Below, one piece after another: positions 3,244 through 25,236 of a DNA stretch of 64,000 nucleotides. The notes under the pieces were generated by a model. It did not search any database. It had not been told where the DNA came from and was given only the letters and a program-made list of their open reading frames with translations. The stretch is from Caldithrix abyssi (GTDB lineage: Bacteria; Calditrichota; Calditrichia; Calditrichales; Calditrichaceae), in assembly GCA_011369465.1 (NCBI GenBank), contig DRQG01000072.1, positions 1 to 64,000 on the forward strand. The letters are read 5' to 3'. Position 1 is the stretch's first letter. Every line of letters begins with the position of its first letter. The translations under genes were made by a program, and so were the position numbers.

Positions 3244-4878
3244 CTACCGCTCCAACCACCCGCTTACGGCCACAATCACAAAAAAATACAGCGCGGTGAG
3301 CGCATACACCCAAAGCCACTTTTTTTGCGAAGGCTCGGCTTCAATTTGCTGAAAATCCGTTTGGGCGAGTGGTGTTTCCAGTGAAAGCGGCCCGCGGCTT
3401 AACAACCAGGCTACGCCTACCGCCGTCAGGAAGCCGCTCACATTCCACCACATCCAGGAAACGGATGTAAACAACCAGAGAATCAGATTAGCCGCAATGC
3501 CGCCAGCCAATCCGATTTTGACAGCTTTGGCGCCGACGCGTTTGCTGAACATACCCAGTAAAAAGGCCGCTAAAATAGGGCCGTAAAGCATACTGCCCAC
3601 GGCGTTAATCAGTACAATGGTGGTCTGCCGGGTGGCCTGGCCTTCTTCGCTGAGCAACAAGGCCGTTCCGATACAGAACAGTCCCCAAAAAACGGTAATC
3701 ATTTTGGAAGCAACCAGATAATGCCGCTCACTGGCTTTTTGGCGGATATACTTTTGATAAATATCCTTCATGGTCACCGCGCTAAGGGAATTAAGGCCCG
3801 AATCCAGGCTGGACATTAAAGCGGCCATGATGGCGACAAAAATAAAACCGATCAAACCGTGCGGCAGATAGGAAAGAATAAACATGGGCACCATACGGTC
3901 GGGGTCGCGTTGCAACAGGGCGTTTAAATCCGGCACGCTCATCTTCATTGTAGCGGCGACGGGTTCGATGCCGTGCGGCGCAAAAAATACCGCACCCACA
4001 AACACACCCATCAATACATAAAACATCACTATAGGAAAGCGGCCGAAGGCATTGACCAGCAGCGATTTGCGCACGTCATCCAGACTGCCCACGGTCAACT
4101 CGCGCTGCACCTGACTCTGGTCGGTGCCGTAATAGGAGGCGTACAAAAAGAAGCCACCGATCAGCATGGGCCAAAAGCCGTAAGTGCTTTCACTGCTGAA
4201 TCCCCACTGGTCAAAGCGTAAAATCTGCAGGCGCTCCGGCGGCAGAGCCGCCCAAATGCTCTCCCAGCCCACTATGTACCAGGCTACGCTGCCGCAAATC
4301 AAGATGCCCAGAAATATGATGGCCATCTGAATAAAATCGCTTAAAATAACCACCCGGATGCCGCCCAGCACATCGTATATGAGCGTAACCACACCGATGA
4401 GCAGGATGGCCTGCGCCGTACTCATGCCGATGGCCGTGGAAAGGATGATGCCGCCGGCCAGCACAGCCACGGCCGTGGCCAGCCCGCGCCCGATCTGAAA
4501 CAGAACGCTGACCATGGTGCGCATGCCGGAATCGAAGCGCTGCTCCAGATATTCGTAGATACTGATCAGCTTTTTTTCATGAAGGACAGGAATGATAACG
4601 GCCATTACCAGAATAAGCGCCAAGGGAACGGCAAATTCATAGGCCAGCCATTTGAGGCCGCCGCCCGCTTTGAGGGCCACAAAAGCCGGGGCGGAAACAA
4701 AACTGATGGCGCTAAGCTGGGTGGCCATGGTGGATACACCCGACTGCCACCATCTGATGTTTCTCCCGGCCAGATAGTAATCCTGCGTATCGGCCTGCCG
4801 GCGGGACAGCCAGACGGAAAATCCCACAATGCCGGCGAGGTAAACAATGATCACCAGCCAGTCTAATAGATTCATCAC
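3244..4878 (-). CDS. Sodium:solute symporter (SSS family), 544 aa
   Basis: An inner-membrane Na+-coupled uptake protein of the SSS/SGLT family. The YYLAGRNIRWWQSGVS segment near the N-terminus, the following STMATQLSAISFVSAPAF and the later ALMSSLDSGLNSLS stretch are family hallmarks (the latter near the Na+ site). About 13-14 hydrophobic segments are visible, as usual. The substrate cannot be read from sequence; sugars or sialic-acid-like compounds are typical of this branch. The 3' end is partly duplicated at 1700-1885. The start is the first of two adjacent ATG codons; a TATAAT lies on the minus strand at 4902-4897, but no good -35 accompanies it. Confidence 0.9.
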   Translation of the reverse strand: MMNLLDWLVIIVYLAGIVGFSVWLSRRQADTQDYYLAGRNIRWWQSGVSTMATQLSAISFVSAPAFVALKAGGGLKWLAYEFAVPLALILVMAVIIPVLHEKKLISIYEYLEQRFDSGMRTMVSVLFQIGRGLATAVAVLAGGIILSTAIGMSTAQAILLIGVVTLIYDVLGGIRVVILSDFIQMAIIFLGILICGSVAWYIVGWESIWAALPPERLQILRFDQWGFSSESTYGFWPMLIGGFFLYASYYGTDQSQVQRELTVGSLDDVRKSLLVNAFGRFPIVMFYVLMGVFVGAVFFAPHGIEPVAATMKMSVPDLNALLQRDPDRMVPMFILSYLPHGLIGFIFVAIMAALMSSLDSGLNSLSAVTMKDIYQKYIRQKASERHYLVASKMITVFWGLFCIGTALLLSEEGQATRQTTIVLINAVGSMLYGPILAAFLLGMFSKRVGAKAVKIGLAGGIAANLILWLFTSVSWMWWNVSGFLTAVGVAWLLSRGPLSLETPLAQTDFQQIEAEPSQKKWLWVYALTALYFFVIVAVSGWLER

Positions 4879-5338
4879 AATTAAAATACTTAATAAATTA
4901 TATCAGCCCTAAATATTTGATAAATGTACTATAAATATCACTATTCAAGCATTTCCCCCCAAAATTACAGTATTGTGGAATGTAGCGTGGGGATTAAGGG
5001 ATTTTTTTAGAAATTATGAAGCTAATGTAATGGCGATATTTCAACCCCCTAACCCCCTTTTTTAAGGGGGAACTTTCAATCAACTATGATAATATTTAGG
5101 ACAGCTGTGTTAATAAATTTATTGCCAAGTTAACCAATTTAGAGGATAAAGAGAAGTAAAATTATAATAGTCTAAAATTTCTTTAAATGACCATTTTTTA
5201 TTACAACCCGCTCAATAAAATAGTATTTTTGGAAGTGATCATTCCAAAAATCCTGGAAATTTGGAAAGTACTGATTCCATTTTTTACCTCCACTAAATAA
5301 AACCGCGAGGATTACACCCATCATTTATAGAAATTCGT
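4879..5338. other. Gene-free spacer, AT-rich
   Basis: This 460 bp spacer lies upstream of the symporter gene and downstream of the VOC gene on the minus strand. It has no convincing ORF or RNA gene. It contains the CCCCC/GGGGG palindrome at 5053-5070 and otherwise unremarkable AT-rich DNA that should include the symporter promoter. Confidence 0.5.
5053..5070. repeat. Perfect palindromic hairpin CCCCCTT-TTTT-AAGGGGG
   Basis: Arms of 7 bases (CCCCCTT / AAGGGGG) with a four-T loop, preceded by the near-repeat AACCCCCT at 5044-5051. It may act as a terminator on the minus strand for the VOC gene, but no U-tract follows directly. It belongs to the general class of tight hairpins scattered through this window. 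Confidence 0.5.
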
Positions 5339-5707
5339 TTACTTTTGGGAATGTAAAGCAATCCGGTTGCCTTCGCTGTCTAAAAACAAGGCCATATAAC
5401 CGACTTCCTCGGTAATCAACGTTTTACCCTGCAATATTTTTCCGCCGTTGGGTTCAATGCGATCCAAAACCGCCTGCATATCGTCACCGACGTCAAAATA
5501 AATAAGGACGCCGTTTGTAGTGGGCGTATATTCATTATGTTGTACAATGGAACCGCCCACGTTCATTTCCTCGCCTACAAAAAAGGCCATGAAAGGGGGA
5601 AAATCAGGGTGACGCTGTACCGGTGTGTTTAAAACGGTGTTATAAAACTTGATAGCCCGATCCAGATCGGTAGCCGGTATTTCAAACCAGGTTATGGTGT
5701 TTTTCAT
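5339..5707 (-). CDS. VOC family (glyoxalase/bleomycin-resistance-like) protein, 122 aa
   Basis: A one-domain vicinal-oxygen-chelate protein of normal length. It opens with ITWFEIPATDLDRAIKFYNTVL, the standard first beta-alpha unit of the fold. A second module runs from GVLIYFDVGDD and ends with MALFLDSEGNRIALHSQ, where the DxxGNxI pattern and terminal His are typical. These proteins are metal-dependent lyases, dioxygenases or binding proteins, and the substrate here cannot be told. It is followed downstream by the symporter and preceded by the SRPBCC gene (about 65 bp gap), so the two small genes may be co-transcribed. Confidence 0.85.
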   Translation of the reverse strand: MKNTITWFEIPATDLDRAIKFYNTVLNTPVQRHPDFPPFMAFFVGEEMNVGGSIVQHNEYTPTTNGVLIYFDVGDDMQAVLDRIEPNGGKILQGKTLITEEVGYMALFLDSEGNRIALHSQK

Positions 5708-5772
5708 TTTTCATTCCTTTTACGCTTAATACTTTGCTTGTACGGAAAATTTCATTTTCATACCGCTATTGA

Positions 5773-6312
5773 TTATTGTTCCAAAATGGTTTTTAAATTG
5801 CTTAGCCCTTCGGCCAGTTGGGGGCCCAAGGCGCCGTCCATGTCCATAAACAACAACATGATATTCATGGGATATGCCATGTCCCCGGCATAGCCCCACA
5901 CCACTCTGGTTCGGGCGGAATCCAGTTGTTCACAGCTCATATAACCCTGTCCAACCGCTTCGAAAGGTTCGAAAAAGCGCAGTTCGGTATCCACCCGTTT
6001 GCCTTCTGTAATATTCACTATCTCCTGTTCGCCGCTGCCCACATCGGGATTTTTGCTTTTCCAGGAAGAAATGAAACCGACCGTCCCGTCCCGGCCCTTG
6101 AACTCCTTTTTCATATTGGGATCCGCTTTGGCCCAAACGCTGAAATTATCCTGATTTTTCAGATATTTGATATAATCGAAAACGACGCTGTCGGGACGAT
6201 TGATCACAATCTCGCGTTCCACCGCATATTCTTTGGGAGCGATCAATGCCGCTACTAATACAATTGCTAATAGAATTGCCAGAAAAATCAAAAGACGCTT
6301 TATCCATTTCAT
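5773..6312 (-). CDS. SRPBCC/polyketide-cyclase-like protein with N-terminal membrane anchor, 179 aa
   Basis: Residues 5-24 form one strongly hydrophobic segment, after which comes a START-like SRPBCC domain: EREIVINRPDSVVFDYI near residue 33 and a C-terminal helix (GALGPQLAEGLSNLKTILEQ) closing the cavity. Proteins of this layout bind hydrophobic ligands or lipids; function is unknown. The single membrane segment suggests an anchored, probably periplasmic domain. It lies directly upstream of the VOC gene. Confidence 0.75.
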   Translation of the reverse strand: MKWIKRLLIFLAILLAIVLVAALIAPKEYAVEREIVINRPDSVVFDYIKYLKNQDNFSVWAKADPNMKKEFKGRDGTVGFISSWKSKNPDVGSGEQEIVNITEGKRVDTELRFFEPFEAVGQGYMSCEQLDSARTRVVWGYAGDMAYPMNIMLLFMDMDGALGPQLAEGLSNLKTILEQ

Positions 6313-17617: not shown

Positions 17618-18715
17618 TCATTCCTTTTCCGTGATAATCAGAAGTTCCGGAAATTTCAGGATAGCAGGGCTGCTTCCTTTCGCCTGTTTTACAGTAACAA
17701 GAATACCTGCAGTTATTAATCGTTTAAGGATTGGCATCAGAGTCTGCTTGGGTATTTTCGTCCGGATTTGCAAATCCGAAGTTCTGAATATGGGCTTATA
17801 AAACAGAGCATCGGTAATTTCCATACTGTACTGGGTTCGTGTCAGTTCCCGTATGCGCTTGTTTGTTGTTTTGTACAATTCCAGTATGCGCTCAATTCGA
17901 CGGATGTTTCTTTGGCCCTGGTTCCTGACCGCTTCCAAATAAAAAGTTATCCACGCATTCCAGTTATCCGATTCGGAGATATCCCTTAATCGGGCATAAT
18001 ATTCATCACGTTTTTCTTCCAGATATTCACTAAGATAAAACATAGGCCGCGTTAAACGCCTTTTATAAAAAAGGAACAATGGTATCAACAATCGTCCGAT
18101 TCTTCCATTTCCGTCTAAAAACGGATGAATTAATTCAAACTGGGCGTGAATGATTCCCGATTGGATCAGAACATCTTCATCATCGGATAGGATATATGTT
18201 TCCAGTTCAGACAAAGCGGCAGGCAACAGGTGCGGCTCGGGTGGAATATATACAGCTTGGTCCATAGGCGTTCCCGGCTTACCAATCCAGTTTTGCCTTT
18301 CACGAAACTTGCCCGGCTCACTTTTTGCGCCTCGGACTCCGGACATCAATTCTTTGTGCATCTGACGGATTAAAAACAGATTTAACGGACGTAACTCCAA
18401 CTCTTTCTCTGCCTGAATCAATGTAGAACGGTAATTTGCGATTTCCTGGATGTCAAGGCGTTTTTGTTCTTCGTTTATCTGTAAACCGGCTTCATGCCGC
18501 AATACTTCATCCATCGTAGCCTGAGTGCCTTCTATTTTAGAAGAAAGAACGGCTTCGTTGGTCGTTAACGGCGATAATAAAATTTCCGGGTTAACAACCG
18601 CCTGCAACAGGCCGTCATAACGGGCTAAAGCGGCATTCGCTTCGCCAACCAGACGGATTAACTTTTTATAATTTATGTTTTCCGGGGGAAGTTTTTTCGA
18701 AATGTAAGGATGCAC
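17618..18715 (-). CDS. Fic family protein, class II self-inhibited, 365 aa
   Basis: Fic enzymes transfer AMP or other nucleotide parts to protein hydroxyls. The core motif HPFLDGNGRIGR (about 197-208 from the chosen start) is intact with its catalytic His. An N-terminal (S/T)xxxE(G/N) inhibitory motif, SSKIEG (about 58-63), marks the self-inhibited class. The N-terminal PALP-like segment (ILLSPLTTNEAVLSSK) and a C-terminal winged helix (FRTSDLQIRTKIPKQTLMPILKRLITAGIL) complete the usual Fic/DUF4172-like layout. An ORF from TTG at 18793 exists, but GTG at 18715 is preferred: GGGAG lies 7 bases before it, and the extra 26 codons would cover the operator boxes. Confidence 0.9.
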   Translation of the reverse strand: MHPYISKKLPPENINYKKLIRLVGEANAALARYDGLLQAVVNPEILLSPLTTNEAVLSSKIEGTQATMDEVLRHEAGLQINEEQKRLDIQEIANYRSTLIQAEKELELRPLNLFLIRQMHKELMSGVRGAKSEPGKFRERQNWIGKPGTPMDQAVYIPPEPHLLPAALSELETYILSDDEDVLIQSGIIHAQFELIHPFLDGNGRIGRLLIPLFLFYKRRLTRPMFYLSEYLEEKRDEYYARLRDISESDNWNAWITFYLEAVRNQGQRNIRRIERILELYKTTNKRIRELTRTQYSMEITDALFYKPIFRTSDLQIRTKIPKQTLMPILKRLITAGILVTVKQAKGSSPAILKFPELLIITEKE

Positions 18716-18729
18716 TTGCCGCTCCCTTT

Positions 18730-18823
18730 TTGTGTCTGGTGAAATATACACAAATTTATTTGTGTCCGACAAATTAATTTTTATCGGACACAAAATATAT
18801 TAAGTATGAAATTCCGGACACAA
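18730..18823. promoter_or_regulatory. Symmetric four-box operator upstream of the Fic gene
   Basis: Four copies of TTGTGTC(C/T)G: plus orientation at 18730-18738 (one mismatch) and 18760-18768, minus orientation at 18785-18793 and 18815-18823. Boxes of equal orientation are exactly 30 bp apart, and the whole set is symmetric about 18776.5. An additional perfect palindrome ACACAAAT-TT-ATTTGTGT spans 18748-18765. The layout suits a dimeric or tetrameric DNA-binding protein; the winged helix of the Fic protein itself is an obvious candidate, by inference. Confidence 0.75.
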
Positions 18824-18889
18824 TCTTTGTTTTCTACGTGCACACTCTTCCGGCACTGTAACCGCCGTCCATAAGGTATTGCGACTGAT

Positions 18890-21800
18890 TTAAGTAGGTT
18901 CGTTTTCTTTTGTGTACAGTTTATACAATACCGGTACGACAATCAAGGTTAGAAAGGTGGACATCAGCAAACCGCCGATAATCGTCCAGCCCATGGGCGC
19001 CCATAGGGTACCACCGCGTAAGGTTAAAGGTAGAAGCCCGCCTACGGTAGTTGCCGTAGTTAATATGATCGGAATAAAACGCGTTTCGCCGGCCGTCTTT
19101 AAAGCCTCGATAATGGATTTCCCCTCGCTGCGCAACTGATTGGTATAATCCACCAGGATGATCGAATTGTTTACCACAATACCGACCAGACTGGCCAGTC
19201 CGATAAAAGCGGTAAAGGAAAACGTATAACCGGTGATTAATAAGGCCATAACGGAACCGATTATCGCCAGAGGAATGGCGCTAAAAACAACCAGGGGCTG
19301 CATATAAGAACGAAACTGCAAAACCAGAACGGCAAAGATGCCAATAATGGCTATTATAATAGCTTGCAGCATCCCGCCGAATGATTCTTCGCGGCTTTCC
19401 AGCTCGCCGCCGATAGCGTAGCGGTAACCTTTCGGCCAGTCATAGCGGTTCAGTTTTTCAATAACATTTCGGGTGATGCCGTCAACGGAATATGATCCCC
19501 AAACGTCTGCCGTAACCGTAACGCTGCGTTCAAGATTATAATGGTTAATCTGCATGGGCGAAGCGGTGAAATCGATTTGCGCCAGTTGTTTAAGAGGAAT
19601 TTCTTCGCCCAAAACGGAATTCACATACACTTTGTCCAGGTCGGACAAACGCGATTTGTTCTCTATCGGCAGACGTACAACTAGGTTATACGCCTTGCCC
19701 TCGGCATCCCGATAGGTGGAAACCGGCATACCGGCAATGGCAATCCGTACGGTTCGATCGATCTCAGCCAGCGGGACGCCCAGCAGACCGGCCTTGTCGC
19801 GGTTAATTTTAACCCGCAAATCCGTTTTCGCGGAGGCCAGAGGATTGTAAATATTGACCGCTCCCGTTTCTTCGGCAATCATCTTTTCCACATCCAGCGA
19901 AATACGGCGCAGTTCATCCAGGTTTTCTCCCAAAACCCGAATGGCGATGGGCGCTTCCACCGGCGGCCCCTGCTGCAATTCCTTCACTTCGATTTTTGCG
20001 CCGGCATAGCGGGAAAAGCTGGCGCGCAGAGTATCCAGCAGGGGAGCGTACAAATGCTTCTTGTCCTGTTTTAATTCCACAAAAATTTGGGCAAAGCGGC
20101 TGTTGGTTCGCCGGGGAATGGCGTTATAATAAACCCGGGGATTGCCATGCCCTATATTTACCGCGTAATGGCGGATTTCCTCCCGCTGATCCAAAAGAGA
20201 TTGCACGTAATCGGAAACACGTTTGGTTTCATCCAGGGAAGTTCCTTCGGGCAGAGTGATGTTTATAAAAAACTGCGGTTTCTCCGCTTTGGGAAAGAAA
20301 CTGATACCGACCAGCGCAAACAATCCGATGCTGGTAAAAAACAACACACCCGCTGCGATGAGAACAAAAACGGGTTTCTTTAAGGCAATGTCCAGCGTTT
20401 TCCGGTAACGGGTTTCCACCAAACGATTTAAAAACTGGCGAAGACGGCTTTCTTTGCAGCAGGTTTCGCGGGTGAAAAAACGGGCCGACAGGTAGGGCGT
20501 CAGCATAAGCGATATAAGCAGCGAAGCGGTTAAGGTATAGACTACCGTTATCGGCATACTGCGGATAAAATCGCCGGTAATGTTGCGCATCATCATCATA
20601 GGAACAAAGGCTAAAACCGTTGTGGCCGTGGAACTGACAATAGCCCAGGCCACCTGACCGGTTCCTTTAACCGCGGCTTCTTCATTTTTATAACCCATTT
20701 TCATAAAACGCGAGATGTTTTCCGTAACGACGATGGCATTGTCAACCAGCAGGCCCAAAGCGATAACCAGCCCGGCAATGGAAAGCTGTTCCAGACCGAA
20801 GCCGCTTAAATCCACAAAACCGATACCGATTAAGATGGAAAAGGGAATGGCCAGCATCACAATACCGGAAGCCCGCAAACCAACGGCAAGCAACACAACC
20901 AACCCGACCAGAACCAATCCCTGTAATAGATTACTGAAAAAGCCGTCAATGCGGCGCTGGACGCTTTCCGACTGGTCAAAGGCAATCTCCAGGCGCAGGG
21001 ATGGCGAAAGCTTTTTCTTGAATTCATCTATTTTTTGCGCCACGGCCCGGCGGATATCAAAAATATTGGTCCCTTTTTTTTGACTTAAGGTGACCCAGAC
21101 AGCCCGTTTTCCTTTAAAGCGAGCGAAATAGCTTTGATCTTCGTAAGCAAAGGATACATCGGCCACATCTTTTAAATAAACCACCTGTCCGTTAGCGCCG
21201 GAGATAATCGTATTTTTAATTTGGTCCAAATCTTTATACGAACCGCTTGTTTTGATATTGAAACGTTTGGGGCCTATATCGATATATCCGCCGGGAATAT
21301 TTTGATTGGCACTGCGCAGAGCATCGATGACCTGCCCGACCGGAATACGCCATAAAGCAATTTTTTGCAGGTCGAGTGCAATGCGCACTTCCTGCTGCGG
21401 ATAGGCCCAGGTTTTTACCCGCTTAACGCCGGGTACTCGTTCCAGCAGGTTTTTAAGCCGGTCGGCCTCAGCTTCCATGCGGGCATAGGGCAGCACATCG
21501 GATACCAGAGCAATTTGCATCACCTGTACATCCGTAATGCTCCACTTCTCGATCTCGATGTTTTGAGCCGCTTGCGGTAAGGAGCTGCGCACCTTATTCA
21601 CCTTTTGTACCACATCGGAATACTTATCGTCCGGGTCGCTGCCGGCCAGGAATTCCACGGCGATTACCGCCAAACCGTCCCAACTGTACGATTTTATATA
21701 CTTGATGTCCTCCAGCTCGTTGATGGATTCTTCCAGCGGCTCCATAATCAGCTCTTCCATATCTGCCGGGCTGGCGCCGGGGTACAAAACAATAATACTG

Positions 21801-21934
21801 CTGCCGGCGGGCGTCACCTGCGGGTCTTCCGAACGGGGCATGGTAAAAAACGACACCAGACCAAAAAGTACCAGCAAGGCAATGAGTGTTAGCGTAAACT
21901 GATGATTTTCAATAGCCAGTTTGGGCAGTTTCAT
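18890..21934 (-). CDS. RND efflux transporter (AcrB/HAE1-like), 1014 aa
   Basis: A full-length inner-membrane proton-driven pump. The N-terminus MKLPKLAIENHQFTLTLIAL is typical; two large periplasmic loops alternate with 12 membrane helices. The family segment GLVIALGLLVDNAIVVTENI carries the helix-4 Asp residues of the proton relay. The PEG-like ends SMALLITGYTFSFTAFIGL and VVPVLYKLY are also standard. Substrates cannot be predicted. It is the last gene of the TetR-TolC-MFP-SDR-RND operon. AGGGA precedes the ATG. Confidence 0.93.
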   Translation of the reverse strand: MKLPKLAIENHQFTLTLIALLVLFGLVSFFTMPRSEDPQVTPAGSSIIVLYPGASPADMEELIMEPLEESINELEDIKYIKSYSWDGLAVIAVEFLAGSDPDDKYSDVVQKVNKVRSSLPQAAQNIEIEKWSITDVQVMQIALVSDVLPYARMEAEADRLKNLLERVPGVKRVKTWAYPQQEVRIALDLQKIALWRIPVGQVIDALRSANQNIPGGYIDIGPKRFNIKTSGSYKDLDQIKNTIISGANGQVVYLKDVADVSFAYEDQSYFARFKGKRAVWVTLSQKKGTNIFDIRRAVAQKIDEFKKKLSPSLRLEIAFDQSESVQRRIDGFFSNLLQGLVLVGLVVLLAVGLRASGIVMLAIPFSILIGIGFVDLSGFGLEQLSIAGLVIALGLLVDNAIVVTENISRFMKMGYKNEEAAVKGTGQVAWAIVSSTATTVLAFVPMMMMRNITGDFIRSMPITVVYTLTASLLISLMLTPYLSARFFTRETCCKESRLRQFLNRLVETRYRKTLDIALKKPVFVLIAAGVLFFTSIGLFALVGISFFPKAEKPQFFINITLPEGTSLDETKRVSDYVQSLLDQREEIRHYAVNIGHGNPRVYYNAIPRRTNSRFAQIFVELKQDKKHLYAPLLDTLRASFSRYAGAKIEVKELQQGPPVEAPIAIRVLGENLDELRRISLDVEKMIAEETGAVNIYNPLASAKTDLRVKINRDKAGLLGVPLAEIDRTVRIAIAGMPVSTYRDAEGKAYNLVVRLPIENKSRLSDLDKVYVNSVLGEEIPLKQLAQIDFTASPMQINHYNLERSVTVTADVWGSYSVDGITRNVIEKLNRYDWPKGYRYAIGGELESREESFGGMLQAIIIAIIGIFAVLVLQFRSYMQPLVVFSAIPLAIIGSVMALLITGYTFSFTAFIGLASLVGIVVNNSIILVDYTNQLRSEGKSIIEALKTAGETRFIPIILTTATTVGGLLPLTLRGGTLWAPMGWTIIGGLLMSTFLTLIVVPVLYKLYTKENEPT

Positions 21935-21967
21935 TTTATAATCCCTATGCTAATAAGGCCTTTTATC

Positions 21968-22771
21968 CTATCCTTCACGTTTGCTCATAATCCAGTGCAC
22001 CAGGCCAAGCACCCAGCTGCGCGGACTGAAGCGAATACCGAGCGTCATGACCTTATTGGAAAGGCCGGTTACAATAACCGGTTTACCTTTCATAAATCCA
22101 ACGTAACCCTGCCGGGCTACTTCTGCGGCAGACATCATCACGATGAGATTGCTGGCAAACAGGCGGGCTTTCTCCATTTTAGCCCTTTTACTGAATTCGG
22201 TTTCCGTAGCGCCCGGACAAAGCGCGGTAACGGTAATGCCGCTGCCTTCCAGTTCTTTATTCAGAGCTTCCGAGAAAGACAGCACGAAGGCTTTGCTGGC
22301 ATAATAGAGCGCCATAAAAGGCCCCGGTAAAAAGGCCGCCGTCGAAGCAACATTCATTATTTTACCCCGCCCTTTTTCCAGCATAGACGGCAAAAACAAC
22401 TTGGTTAAATGCGCCAGGCTGATCATATTAAGCTGGCTCATTTTGGCTTCCCTCGCCCAGTCCGTTTCGGCAAAAGCGCCGTATGCGCCGAAGCCAGCGT
22501 TATTTATCAGAATGTCGATATCGATACCTTGGTTGTTTATCTCGTCGTATAATTCCTGCGGACTGTCAGTTAGAGATAAATCCTTATCAATAACCGTTGT
22601 GTTTACCTGATATTCTTTTTGAAGAAGTGAAGCCAGCTCCTCTAATTTTTGCCGGTTGCGCGCCACCAGAACCAAATTATAGCGGTCGCGGGCAAACAGT
22701 TTGGCCAGTTCGTATCCGATACCCGTAGAAGCGCCGGTAATCAATACGGTTTGCGGTGATGTATGTGACAT
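21968..22771 (-). CDS. Short-chain dehydrogenase/reductase, 267 aa
   Basis: A classical SDR Rossmann enzyme: NAD(P)-binding TGASTGIGYELA near residue 13, NNAGFGAYG, and the active-site pair Tyr-x3-Lys in YYASKAFVLSFSE. The PG motif follows in LCPGATETEF. It resembles the DltE/YqjQ-like general-oxidoreductase group. The substrate is unknown. Unusually it lies inside an efflux operon, between the adaptor gene and the pump gene, 18 bp after the former, with AAGGAGAA before its ATG. Confidence 0.88.
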   Translation of the reverse strand: MSHTSPQTVLITGASTGIGYELAKLFARDRYNLVLVARNRQKLEELASLLQKEYQVNTTVIDKDLSLTDSPQELYDEINNQGIDIDILINNAGFGAYGAFAETDWAREAKMSQLNMISLAHLTKLFLPSMLEKGRGKIMNVASTAAFLPGPFMALYYASKAFVLSFSEALNKELEGSGITVTALCPGATETEFSKRAKMEKARLFASNLIVMMSAAEVARQGYVGFMKGKPVIVTGLSNKVMTLGIRFSPRSWVLGLVHWIMSKREG

Positions 22772-22789
22772 GTATTATTCTCCTTATTA

Positions 22790-23827
22790 TTAACGTATGA
22801 TTTCAATGCTACTGTTCTTATCCAGATAGGACACACCGGCTGTTATAACCTGACTGGTGTTTTCCAACCCTTTACGTACGGCAACCCGGCCGTCCAGAAT
22901 GTAGGCGATTTGCACCTCTATTAAGCGTACGCTTTTTTCGTCATCGGCGGGTGCATATACTTTGCCCGTCATGCCCTTACCTTCCAGAAGCGATTCAACG
23001 GGAATCATCCACACGGTTTCTCTCTTTGATGGAAAAATGTCGATACGTCCGACAAAACCCGAAAGCAGCGGGCGGGAGGGGTTTATCAAACGGATTTCCA
23101 CTTCATACAGTCCGGTTTTGGGACTGGCGACCGCCGCCACTTCGGAAACCACCGCTGAGAAACATTGGTTCGGATACGGATCAAATTGGATGCGCGCGCT
23201 GTCGCCGAGTTGTATTTGCAGGATATCACGGTCAGCCAATCCGGTTTTTATGATCCAGCCGCTGGCCTCGTTGCCGAAAATGAGCACCGGCATGCCCGGG
23301 TTGACCATTTCGCCCTCATTAAAAAGTTTTTTGTATATTTTACCATTGGAAGGCGCGTAAATGGCCGAGTGTTTTAGATTGAATTCGGCAATGCGCAGAT
23401 TGGACCCGGCCACATCCAGGGCGGTTTGGGCATTTTGCAGCTGTTCGAAAGTAACCACACTATCCGCATAAAGTCGGCTCACCCGTTTAAAATCGCGCTC
23501 GGCTTTTCGATAAGCGCTCTGCGCCTGATTTTTACGGGCCTCTATTTCGGCCAGGTCCAGTCGGGCCAACAAAGCGCCCTTTTTGACTTCCTGACCTTCA
23601 TCAACGAAAATTCGTTTGATGATACCGCCAGTTTTAAAAGCCAGTTTGATCTCATCTTTCAGAGCCAGAATGCCTGAAGCATGAAGAGGCGGGGCGATGG
23701 TTTTGCGGACAACAGGCGCTGTTTTAACCCGTATCTTTTGGGTCAGCGGCTTTTGTTCCCGGTGATTGGAACAGGCGCTGATAAGCAAAAAGATCAAAAC
23801 AAACCAAATGGTTAAAGAAACTTTCAT
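22790..23827 (-). CDS. RND periplasmic adaptor (membrane fusion) lipoprotein, 345 aa
   Basis: Connects the RND pump to the TolC channel. A lipoprotein signal (LLISAC, lipidated Cys19) is followed by the biotinyl-lipoyl half domain (GGIIKRIFVDEGQEVKKGALLARLD), a coiled-coil hairpin (about 95-135), the second half-lipoyl (YAPSNGKIYKKLFNEGEMV) and beta-barrel/MP domains. Its start overlaps the TolC gene stop by 4 bases (ATGA), showing translational coupling. Confidence 0.9.
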   Translation of the reverse strand: MKVSLTIWFVLIFLLISACSNHREQKPLTQKIRVKTAPVVRKTIAPPLHASGILALKDEIKLAFKTGGIIKRIFVDEGQEVKKGALLARLDLAEIEARKNQAQSAYRKAERDFKRVSRLYADSVVTFEQLQNAQTALDVAGSNLRIAEFNLKHSAIYAPSNGKIYKKLFNEGEMVNPGMPVLIFGNEASGWIIKTGLADRDILQIQLGDSARIQFDPYPNQCFSAVVSEVAAVASPKTGLYEVEIRLINPSRPLLSGFVGRIDIFPSKRETVWMIPVESLLEGKGMTGKVYAPADDEKSVRLIEVQIAYILDGRVAVRKGLENTSQVITAGVSYLDKNSSIEIIR

Positions 23828-25236
23828 TTTGCATCCTCTTTAAAGTTTTCCAGCGATAAAGCGGCTGTAACCCGCTCCAGCTCAGCCTGATAAATCAAAT
23901 ATTCATAATAGGCAATTAAGCGGTTCACTTCCGCTCTGGTCATGGTTATGCGGGCGTCCAGATACTCGATATGCGCGGCCATTCCTTCTTTATATTTTTT
24001 ATTGACAATTTTGAACGATTCCCTGGCGCTGTTTACACGGTCTTCGGCAACCCGGATTGATTTTTTTGCCGTGATTACCCGATTCACCGCCTTCTGAACC
24101 TGCAAGCGAATCTGCATCCTGAATTCCTGCAATTGTGTTTCCAGCTTTTTCTTTTCCATTACCGCCTGTTGACGGCGGGCGTCGTCCTGAAAGCCGCGGA
24201 AAAGATTCCATTGCAGAATGCCGGAAACCATCCAAAAATCATCTTCTTTACCAAATCTGTATTCTTCGCCCTGATAGCCGAAATCGGCCACCAGATTGAG
24301 CGCCGGCAGAAAAGATGAAGCGGCTATTTTGCCGGAATAGTCCGCGGCGTTTACCGCTTCTTCCAATTGTTTTAATTCTTCCCGTCGTTTCAGAGCCTCG
24401 CGCCAGGCTTGTTCCGCTTCCGGGATGAGATAGGTATCCAGTTTTAGATCGTCGATCAAAGTGATGGCCTTATCCAGCGGACGATTGAGCAAAAAGTTGA
24501 AATAAAAAGCAGCAATCTGTCTCTGATTTTTAGCTTCCAGAATGCTTTGCTCTATTTTACTTTTCTCCGTTTCCGCCCGGTACACGACTTCGCGGGTCGC
24601 TTTGTCGTTTTCGTAAAGTTTTTGGCTGACGCGTAAATTTTCCTGCACAACTTCGGCGGTTTGCCGCATCAACCGCACCAGGTATTCCGTTTTGAGTACA
24701 TTAAAATATGCTTTCTTTACATCCTGAATGAGCTGCCGGGTATAAACCGCTACTTCGTTTTCGTTTATCTGCTGCAGGTTGCTCTTAATTTTATAGTTGT
24801 AATACAGGGCAGGCTGGAAAACCGGTTGAACGGCGCGGATTTTTGTCTCATGCTCGCGTTCGCGCAAAAAGGGAATGGTTTGGTTCTCCAGAGTGGGAAA
24901 CGGCCGCGGCGGCTGACCGATACCGACCAGGATGTCGTTGAGTGTGCGATAAACCGGATTCATCAAATCACCCAGCGGAAAGTCGATGGTTCGTCCGCCT
25001 CCGGCACGGGAGTAACGCGCTTCGATACCGACGGAAGGATAAAACATCCCGCGCGCTTCACGCAAAGCCTGCATACTTTTGCGGAAATCGAATTGCTTTT
25101 GTTTTAAAGCCAGATTGTTCTGCAAAGCCTCTTTGATATAGGCGTCCAAAACGGGATAGCGCGAATAGTCTCCCGCCCGGACGTAAACGACAAGCAGAAA
25201 AAATAGTGCAAACCGAATAAGATGTGTTCTCATCAT
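23824..25236 (-). CDS. TolC family outer-membrane efflux protein, 470 aa
   Basis: After a signal peptide (about 1-21) the protein shows two OEP repeats. YIKEALQNNLALKQKQFDFRKSMQALREARG begins the first, and LKRREELKQLEEAVNAADYSGKIAASSFLPAL the second; long helical stretches would form the periplasmic tunnel. It provides the exit duct for the RND pump encoded downstream. The start (the first of two ATG codons) overlaps the tetR stop by 4 bases. Confidence 0.9.
   Translation of the reverse strand: MMRTHLIRFALFFLLVVYVRAGDYSRYPVLDAYIKEALQNNLALKQKQFDFRKSMQALREARGMFYPSVGIEARYSRAGGGRTIDFPLGDLMNPVYRTLNDILVGIGQPPRPFPTLENQTIPFLREREHETKIRAVQPVFQPALYYNYKIKSNLQQINENEVAVYTRQLIQDVKKAYFNVLKTEYLVRLMRQTAEVVQENLRVSQKLYENDKATREVVYRAETEKSKIEQSILEAKNQRQIAAFYFNFLLNRPLDKAITLIDDLKLDTYLIPEAEQAWREALKRREELKQLEEAVNAADYSGKIAASSFLPALNLVADFGYQGEEYRFGKEDDFWMVSGILQWNLFRGFQDDARRQQAVMEKKKLETQLQEFRMQIRLQVQKAVNRVITAKKSIRVAEDRVNSARESFKIVNKKYKEGMAAHIEYLDARITMTRAEVNRLIAYYEYLIYQAELERVTAALSLENFKEDAK

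Follow-up and report, generated by a model that had tools for sequence, protein, structure and literature searches.

The fic locus of the window

The window, a stretch of 64,000 nucleotides from Caldithrix abyssi (assembly GCA_011369465.1, contig DRQG01000072.1, positions 1 to 64,000 of the forward strand), carries a fic gene on the minus strand (17618..18715). The gene encodes 365 amino acids from a GTG start codon (18713-18715), and a Shine-Dalgarno-like AGGGAG (18722..18727, minus strand) lies 6 nt 5' of this start. The product has the domain order Fic_N, Fic and winged-helix C-terminus of the SoFic type, class II. Pfam matched Fic_N (5e-24), Fic (5e-19) and SoFic-like_C (1.9e-5, below the cut-off of that family), and the PADLOC SoFic profile matched at E 4.1e-113. 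The score against the NCBIfam SoFic equivalog NF046030 was 186.6 bits and missed the cut-off of 550; therefore, we describe the protein as SoFic-type and not as a strict SoFic ortholog.

The Fic motif HPFx[D/E]GNGR occurs as HPFLDGNGR at residues 197-205, with H197, P198, D201, G202, N203, G204 and R205 invariant among 30 sequences. The class II inhibitory motif is defined as [ST]xxxE[GN]; SSKIEG, at residues 58-63 in the N-terminal part of the protein, has this form, and S58, E62 and G63 were also invariant (30 sequences). The accessible part of the paper on CccR, a Fic protein compared below, agrees with this definition (PMC9755527). By both motifs, the window protein is a predicted class II Fic AMP-transferase. 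Its AlphaFold2 model (pLDDT 91.9, pTM 0.89) ends in a C-terminal winged helix with helices at 297-306, 312-319 and 323-335 and wing strands at 340-343 and 352-354; residues 323-335 form the recognition helix. The best fold match of the model was Shewanella SoFic (SO_4266, PDB 3EQX/3ZCN; TM 0.83 to 3eqx), the closest solved fold, which has the same domain order but only 27% identity in the fold alignment.

By sequence reading, the neighbours of fic are an RND pump gene and a DUF1028 gene, with no restriction gene beside it. Upstream of fic and on the same strand lies an apparent RND efflux operon (18890-25236, minus strand), whose members read as an outer-membrane factor, a fusion protein, a short-chain dehydrogenase and the pump.

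A four-box array before fic

Four exact TTGTGTCYG boxes lie between the stop of the RND-type transporter gene (18890) and the start of fic: 18730-18738 and 18760-18768 on the plus strand, and 18785-18793 and 18815-18823 on the minus strand. Boxes start 30 bp apart inside each pair and 25 bp apart between the inner boxes, and this 30/25/30 bp spacing makes the array symmetric about 18776.5, exactly as the first-pass annotation had described. Over its 94 bp, the array agrees with its reverse complement at 60 positions. The annotation had also called 18748-18765 a perfect 18 bp palindrome; here only 16 of 18 positions match the reverse complement, and the two that fail are the central bases.

We next compared these boxes with the rest of the 4.31 Mb genome. 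A single box was no commoner than chance (41 exact matches vs. 40 for the reversed control), which rules out the lone box as a regulon marker. A pair of box matches on contig C15, 147 bp apart, was not array-like. In contrast to the single box, the genome-wide chance of four boxes within 94 bp, calculated from the single-box density, is about 8e-10. The exact inner inverted pair occurs in one place only; with up to 3 mismatches it was found in 4 places vs. 2 for the control, and the one in the window was alone in being exact. Since the inner pair is unique, the array looks dedicated to fic in this genome.

The geometry is conserved beside fic in relatives

Loci were collected by protein similarity alone, giving 140 distinct Fic proteins. 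The phylum itself supplied 12 matches (40 genomes) and the genome contigs the best 80 of 556; 12 viral-contig loci and 14 re-searched genomes were added, and further groups of 244, 369, 58, 345 and 337 genomes were also searched for Fic homologs. A DNA-similarity search for an E. coli relative gave no match. Arrays were scored by the likeness of four 9-mers placed at A, A+d, inverted and inverted+d, a measure that does not presuppose any box sequence, with a threshold of at least 37 of 54. In a scan of 609 geometries over 130 upstream regions, from which the window locus was excluded, d=30 ranked first with 19-20 regions at inner spacings of 25-27, whereas the best other d reached at most 5 of the 130. 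The same peak at d=30 had come from 1054 geometries scanned earlier on 81 loci, the window among them. The first set of control stretches was flawed in that it contained arrays downstream of fic, which thereby came to light.

A whole-locus scan (733,195 positions) found the array on either side of fic. It lies beside fic in 72 of the 140 loci (score at least 37), upstream in 17 and downstream in 55, and 68 loci had no scored array. Three viral-contig loci were left out of these counts, L132 and L134 because of chance scores in low-complexity, A/T-rich sequence and L126 because of an unusual box; L169, at a contig edge, was counted as having a downstream array. Outside both fic-flanking zones there were only 4 matches, one in L076 and three at a single place in the near-identical L154-L156. 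Grouped by family-model score, 64 of 100 close homologs (at least 440), 8 of 23 intermediate and none of 17 distant homologs had the array; of the 68 loci lacking one, 36 are close homologs, and the flanks were short in 5 of those 36. The downstream arrays mostly begin 5-6 bp past the fic stop codon. Orthologous loci are thus not devoid of the boxes, which the annotation had named as a result that would speak against it. The check it had proposed, a search for the boxes in front of Fic homologs, finds the array there in 17 loci; in 55 the array follows the gene. From behind fic the array cannot autoregulate fic through a promoter before fic; since this is the arrangement in most relatives, autoregulation is one of two layouts only.

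Some downstream arrays seem longer than the standard, with extra boxes. In L079 and L124 the extra boxes were second, overlapping array matches; in L053 and L059 they were judged by eye.

The full putative operator has six half-sites

Alignment of 51 non-redundant arrays revealed six half-site hexamers instead of four. TTTGTG stood at offsets 0, 30 and 70 in 39, 45 and 27 of the 51 loci, and CACAAA at offsets 20, 60 and 90 in 29, 42 and 36; the background averaged 0.35 per offset. In the window, half-site 1 (box A on the gene strand) is ATTGTGTCCG at 18815..18824 (minus strand). The position of half-site 2 (18799..18804, minus strand) is degenerate and reads CTTAAT on the gene strand. Half-sites 3 (box B; 18785..18794, minus strand) and 4 (box C; 18759..18768, plus strand) are both TTTGTGTCCG. 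Half-site 5 is the hexamer TTTGTG on the gene strand (18749..18754, minus strand), and half-site 6 (box D; 18729..18738, plus strand), which is TTTGTGTCTG with a leading T, adjoins the ribosome-binding site of fic. The imperfect 18 bp palindrome corresponds to the conserved pair of half-sites at offsets 60 and 70, and half-site 5 belongs to it. The annotation had proposed, from the 30 bp spacing, binding on one face of the helix. The data agree with this idea: all six hexamer offsets are multiples of 10 bp, and the 30 bp spacing is kept across phyla. Binding might also be cooperative, as the annotation had suggested.

Half-site sequence follows the recognition helix

The first half of the 12-mer half-site, TTTGTG, is nearly constant, and variation falls in positions 7-10, which read TCCG in the window and TATC, GAGY, TAAC or TCTC in relatives. 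Differences between half-sites were set against those between the proteins, taken in sliding windows of 10 residues and corrected for overall protein distance. Loci scoring below 37 were dropped, and then 21 of the 72 remaining, each at least 80% identical to one kept, leaving 51. Only protein windows starting at about 314-326 covaried with the half-site, with a peak at 320-329 (partial r 0.56). Elsewhere, in a profile sampled every 10 residues, the value was at most 0.17, and the largest of 1000 maxima from shuffled half-site labels was 0.277. The covarying residues 315-330 span the turn and the first part of the recognition helix in the C-terminal winged helix. Per-column mutual information was noisier. 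Q324 and K323 headed its ranking, and 11 of the 25 best column/position pairs fell in 312-332.

In 46 of 51 loci, half-site position 7 agreed with residue 323: it was T where this residue is lysine (Lys323) and G where it is not. The sequence TCC went with a helix carrying Q/T324 and L/V326 in 7 of 8 loci, and none of the 43 others had this helix type. The helix IPKQTLMP accompanies TTGTGTCCG in the window and in L045 and L050, which are named Pseudomonadota; close variants of this combination occur in L110 (Planctomycetota) and L044 (Fidelibacterota). IHEKTT accompanies TTGTGGAGY, IHKPTAMG accompanies TTGTGTATC and INKKTAMA accompanies TTGTGTAAC. Close pairs with unlike half-sites (cores 82-87% identical) differ at the helix. 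For example, L075 shares 82-87% identity with IHEKT-type proteins in its core, yet its helix is IHKPTAMG and its box is the TTGTGTATC that goes with this helix. For remote relatives, helix similarity predicted 2.2 of 4 half-site positions vs. 1.6-1.7 for core similarity. A strict tree-based pair test was underpowered (5 and 2 independent pairs with good support; median p 0.25 and 0.5), so part of the covariation may reflect common descent.

The covariation, confined to the region of the recognition helix, gives strong indirect evidence that the Fic protein itself binds the array, and we take such binding as very probable. Together with the two motifs and the modelled winged helix, the covariation supports the proposal that the boxes form an operator before a self-inhibited Fic protein.

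Restriction-modification genes often neighbour the downstream arrays

Neighbours were searched with phmmer, using as probes 40 selected neighbour proteins typed with Pfam. A restriction-modification gene was present in the flank of at least 32 of 55 downstream-array loci, at least 5 of 17 upstream-array loci and at least 14 of 68 loci without an array; these counts are lower bounds because the flanks span at most 1.5-3 kb. Typical orders in the restriction-linked downstream-array loci are mod-fic-[array]-res (L071) and hsdS-fic-[array]-hsdR (L109; also L063, where a single gene separates hsdS from fic). Pfam typing of the neighbours also gave fic-[array]-hsdM in L102, fic-[array]-AIPR in L045, res-[array]-fic-mod in L089, of the upstream class, and hsdR-fic-hsdM without a scored array in L090. 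Because the operator stands before restriction genes in relatives of the downstream class, Fic is predicted to control a restriction subunit there.

Two further neighbours were noted. In L033, the nearest ortholog (75%), a NotI-type restriction endonuclease gene (PF12183; 142-1035, minus strand) lies behind fic. In L087, the array is followed at a short distance by the gene of a second, different Fic-domain protein of 450 aa (4800-6152).

Predicted autorepression and the alternatives

A sigma-70-like putative fic promoter lies inside the array (18743..18772, minus strand), with TTGTCG (18772-18767) and TATATT (18748-18743) separated by 18 bp. The sigma-70 type was assumed, and this sole promoter-like match in 18600-19000 on both strands does not exceed what shuffled sequences yield (mean 0.8). 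At offset 75, 4 of 13 upstream-array loci carried a -10-like hexamer and so did 2 of 38 downstream-array loci, vs. 0 and 3 in the mirror direction; since this is weak, we make no general promoter claim for all arrays. In the 27 readable downstream-array loci, the median distance from the last box to the next start codon was 50 bp, and in 12 it was at most 35 bp. Both the site inside the array and these short distances fit repression by blocking a promoter. With the only promoter-like site of the region inside the array, autorepression of fic is the most likely mode of control in the window. DNA binding and AMPylation might in addition be coupled into the switch that the annotation had suggested.

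From the array, its geometry and conservation, the helix/half-site covariation and the gene neighbourhoods, all obtained by computation, we infer physical binding by Fic dimers, repression, and a signal that lifts it. Dimerisation is suggested by SoFic and CccR. The C-terminal winged helix would dock its recognition helix (323-335) into TTTGTGTCCG half-sites at multiples of 10 bp. Bound Fic would cover the sole fic promoter-like site and so repress its own synthesis; little would then be made of an AMP-transferase that is potentially toxic and auto-inhibited by its N-terminal part. This operator would act, in relatives, from behind fic and in front of the restriction genes. We consider it probable that the array is Fic's own operator, with autorepression predicted here and control of a restriction subunit in relatives.

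Fic might instead bind the array as an activator, so that accumulating Fic turns the restriction gene on late. C proteins act in this way to delay restriction genes, according to the part of that literature covered, and in 15 of the 27 readable downstream-array loci a gap of more than 35 bp precedes the next start codon, so that a promoter past the array would have space. However, the other 12 loci offer scant promoter space, the only promoter-like site of the window lies inside the array, and CccR is described as a repressor in the accessible part of its paper (PMC9755527). We regard activation as unlikely, though it may apply at the restriction loci.

Still less credible, to the point of being very improbable, is that the array is the target of another protein, such as a host regulator, a recombinase or a transposase, with fic a mere neighbour. 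Similar proteins do occur in many phyla, which makes the fic loci look horizontally mobile. The ends of mobile elements also bear inverted, repeated boxes. Against such a target, the half-site sequence follows the Fic recognition helix and the array flanks fic on either side, with only the 4 places elsewhere, three of them effectively one. As to the boxes being coding sequence of a longer fic that begins at the TTG at 18793, the case the annotation had allowed for, the frame is indeed open from there, but there is next to no chance of it: homologs align from the GTG at 18715, in-frame stops 3-27 bp 5' of the gene's own start sever most or all of the array from it in 8 of 13 upstream-array loci examined (L044, L052, L055, L096, L100, L103, L154 and L157), leaving no more than the last box as potential coding sequence there, and the array lies behind fic in 55 loci.

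Comparison with known systems

CccR of Yersinia pseudotuberculosis is the one close precedent for Fic-HTH autorepression, with a different operator. In the accessible part of its paper it is a class II Fic toxin that has a C-terminal HTH and acts through inverted boxes near -35/-10 as a repressor of its own promoter; two inverted 10 bp repeats are protected by the HTH half, and the dimer is needed for site recognition (PMC9755527). The CccR operator is one pair of 10 bp repeats (N26) and differs in sequence from the window array, which has six half-sites phased at multiples of 10 bp; the CccR layout is not matched by a 30/25/30 array of TTTGTG-type half-sites. CccR is also secreted, and the word "restriction" does not appear in the accessible text of the paper (PMC9755527).

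SoFic has been reported as anti-phage in the available part of one study (PMC12249575), and another, as far as its accessible text goes, states that SoFic DNA binding had not been demonstrated (PMC10628234). CbFic2 of Coxiella is a Fic enzyme with a DNA-binding C-terminal HTH; according to the same accessible text it differs in that only random DNA was assayed, its N-terminal domain is DUF4172 and a host histone was proposed as the target (PMC10628234).

From the side of restriction control, C proteins are small regulators without an enzyme domain. They and RptR resemble the predicted Fic operator system in being DNA-binding controllers beside restriction-modification genes with repeated operator boxes; RptR too is a small regulator lacking an enzyme domain, and "Fic" is absent from the accessible part of the RptR paper (PMC12255303). 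Fic control of restriction genes, the 30/25/30 operator geometry and the helix code were not found in the PubMed Central literature searched.

Possible meaning of the operator

A Fic-family enzyme, of a kind that modifies proteins, seems to read precisely spaced boxes beside its own gene, and the same spacing beside the restriction (anti-virus) genes of relatives suggests that Fic enzymes may also be gene switches for bacterial defence. The six half-sites and the recognition-helix code offer a testable answer to the role of the SoFic-type winged helix. The code has a built-in specificity test, as exchanging a few helix residues should change the predicted boxes too. The link with restriction genes suggests Fic-based regulation of type I and type III restriction systems. 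A wider reading, to which we give an even chance, is that SoFic-type Fic proteins are widespread enzymatic controllers of restriction-modification and defence operons, each combining an AMP-transferase and a repressor with a readable code. If so, loss of repression, e.g. on phage attack or after transfer, would raise the restriction subunit, and the Fic toxin would serve as a second, abortive line.

Finally, a sister Fic group (L042, L038, L040 and L043) carries distinct repeated boxes upstream of the gene, spaced with a period of about 40 bp, which suggests a phased operator of its own for each Fic-HTH subfamily. In L038 the boxes are GAAAATATA at -128/-88/-48; in L042, the second fic of the genome under study (G000:C67), they lie at -105/-64/-24.
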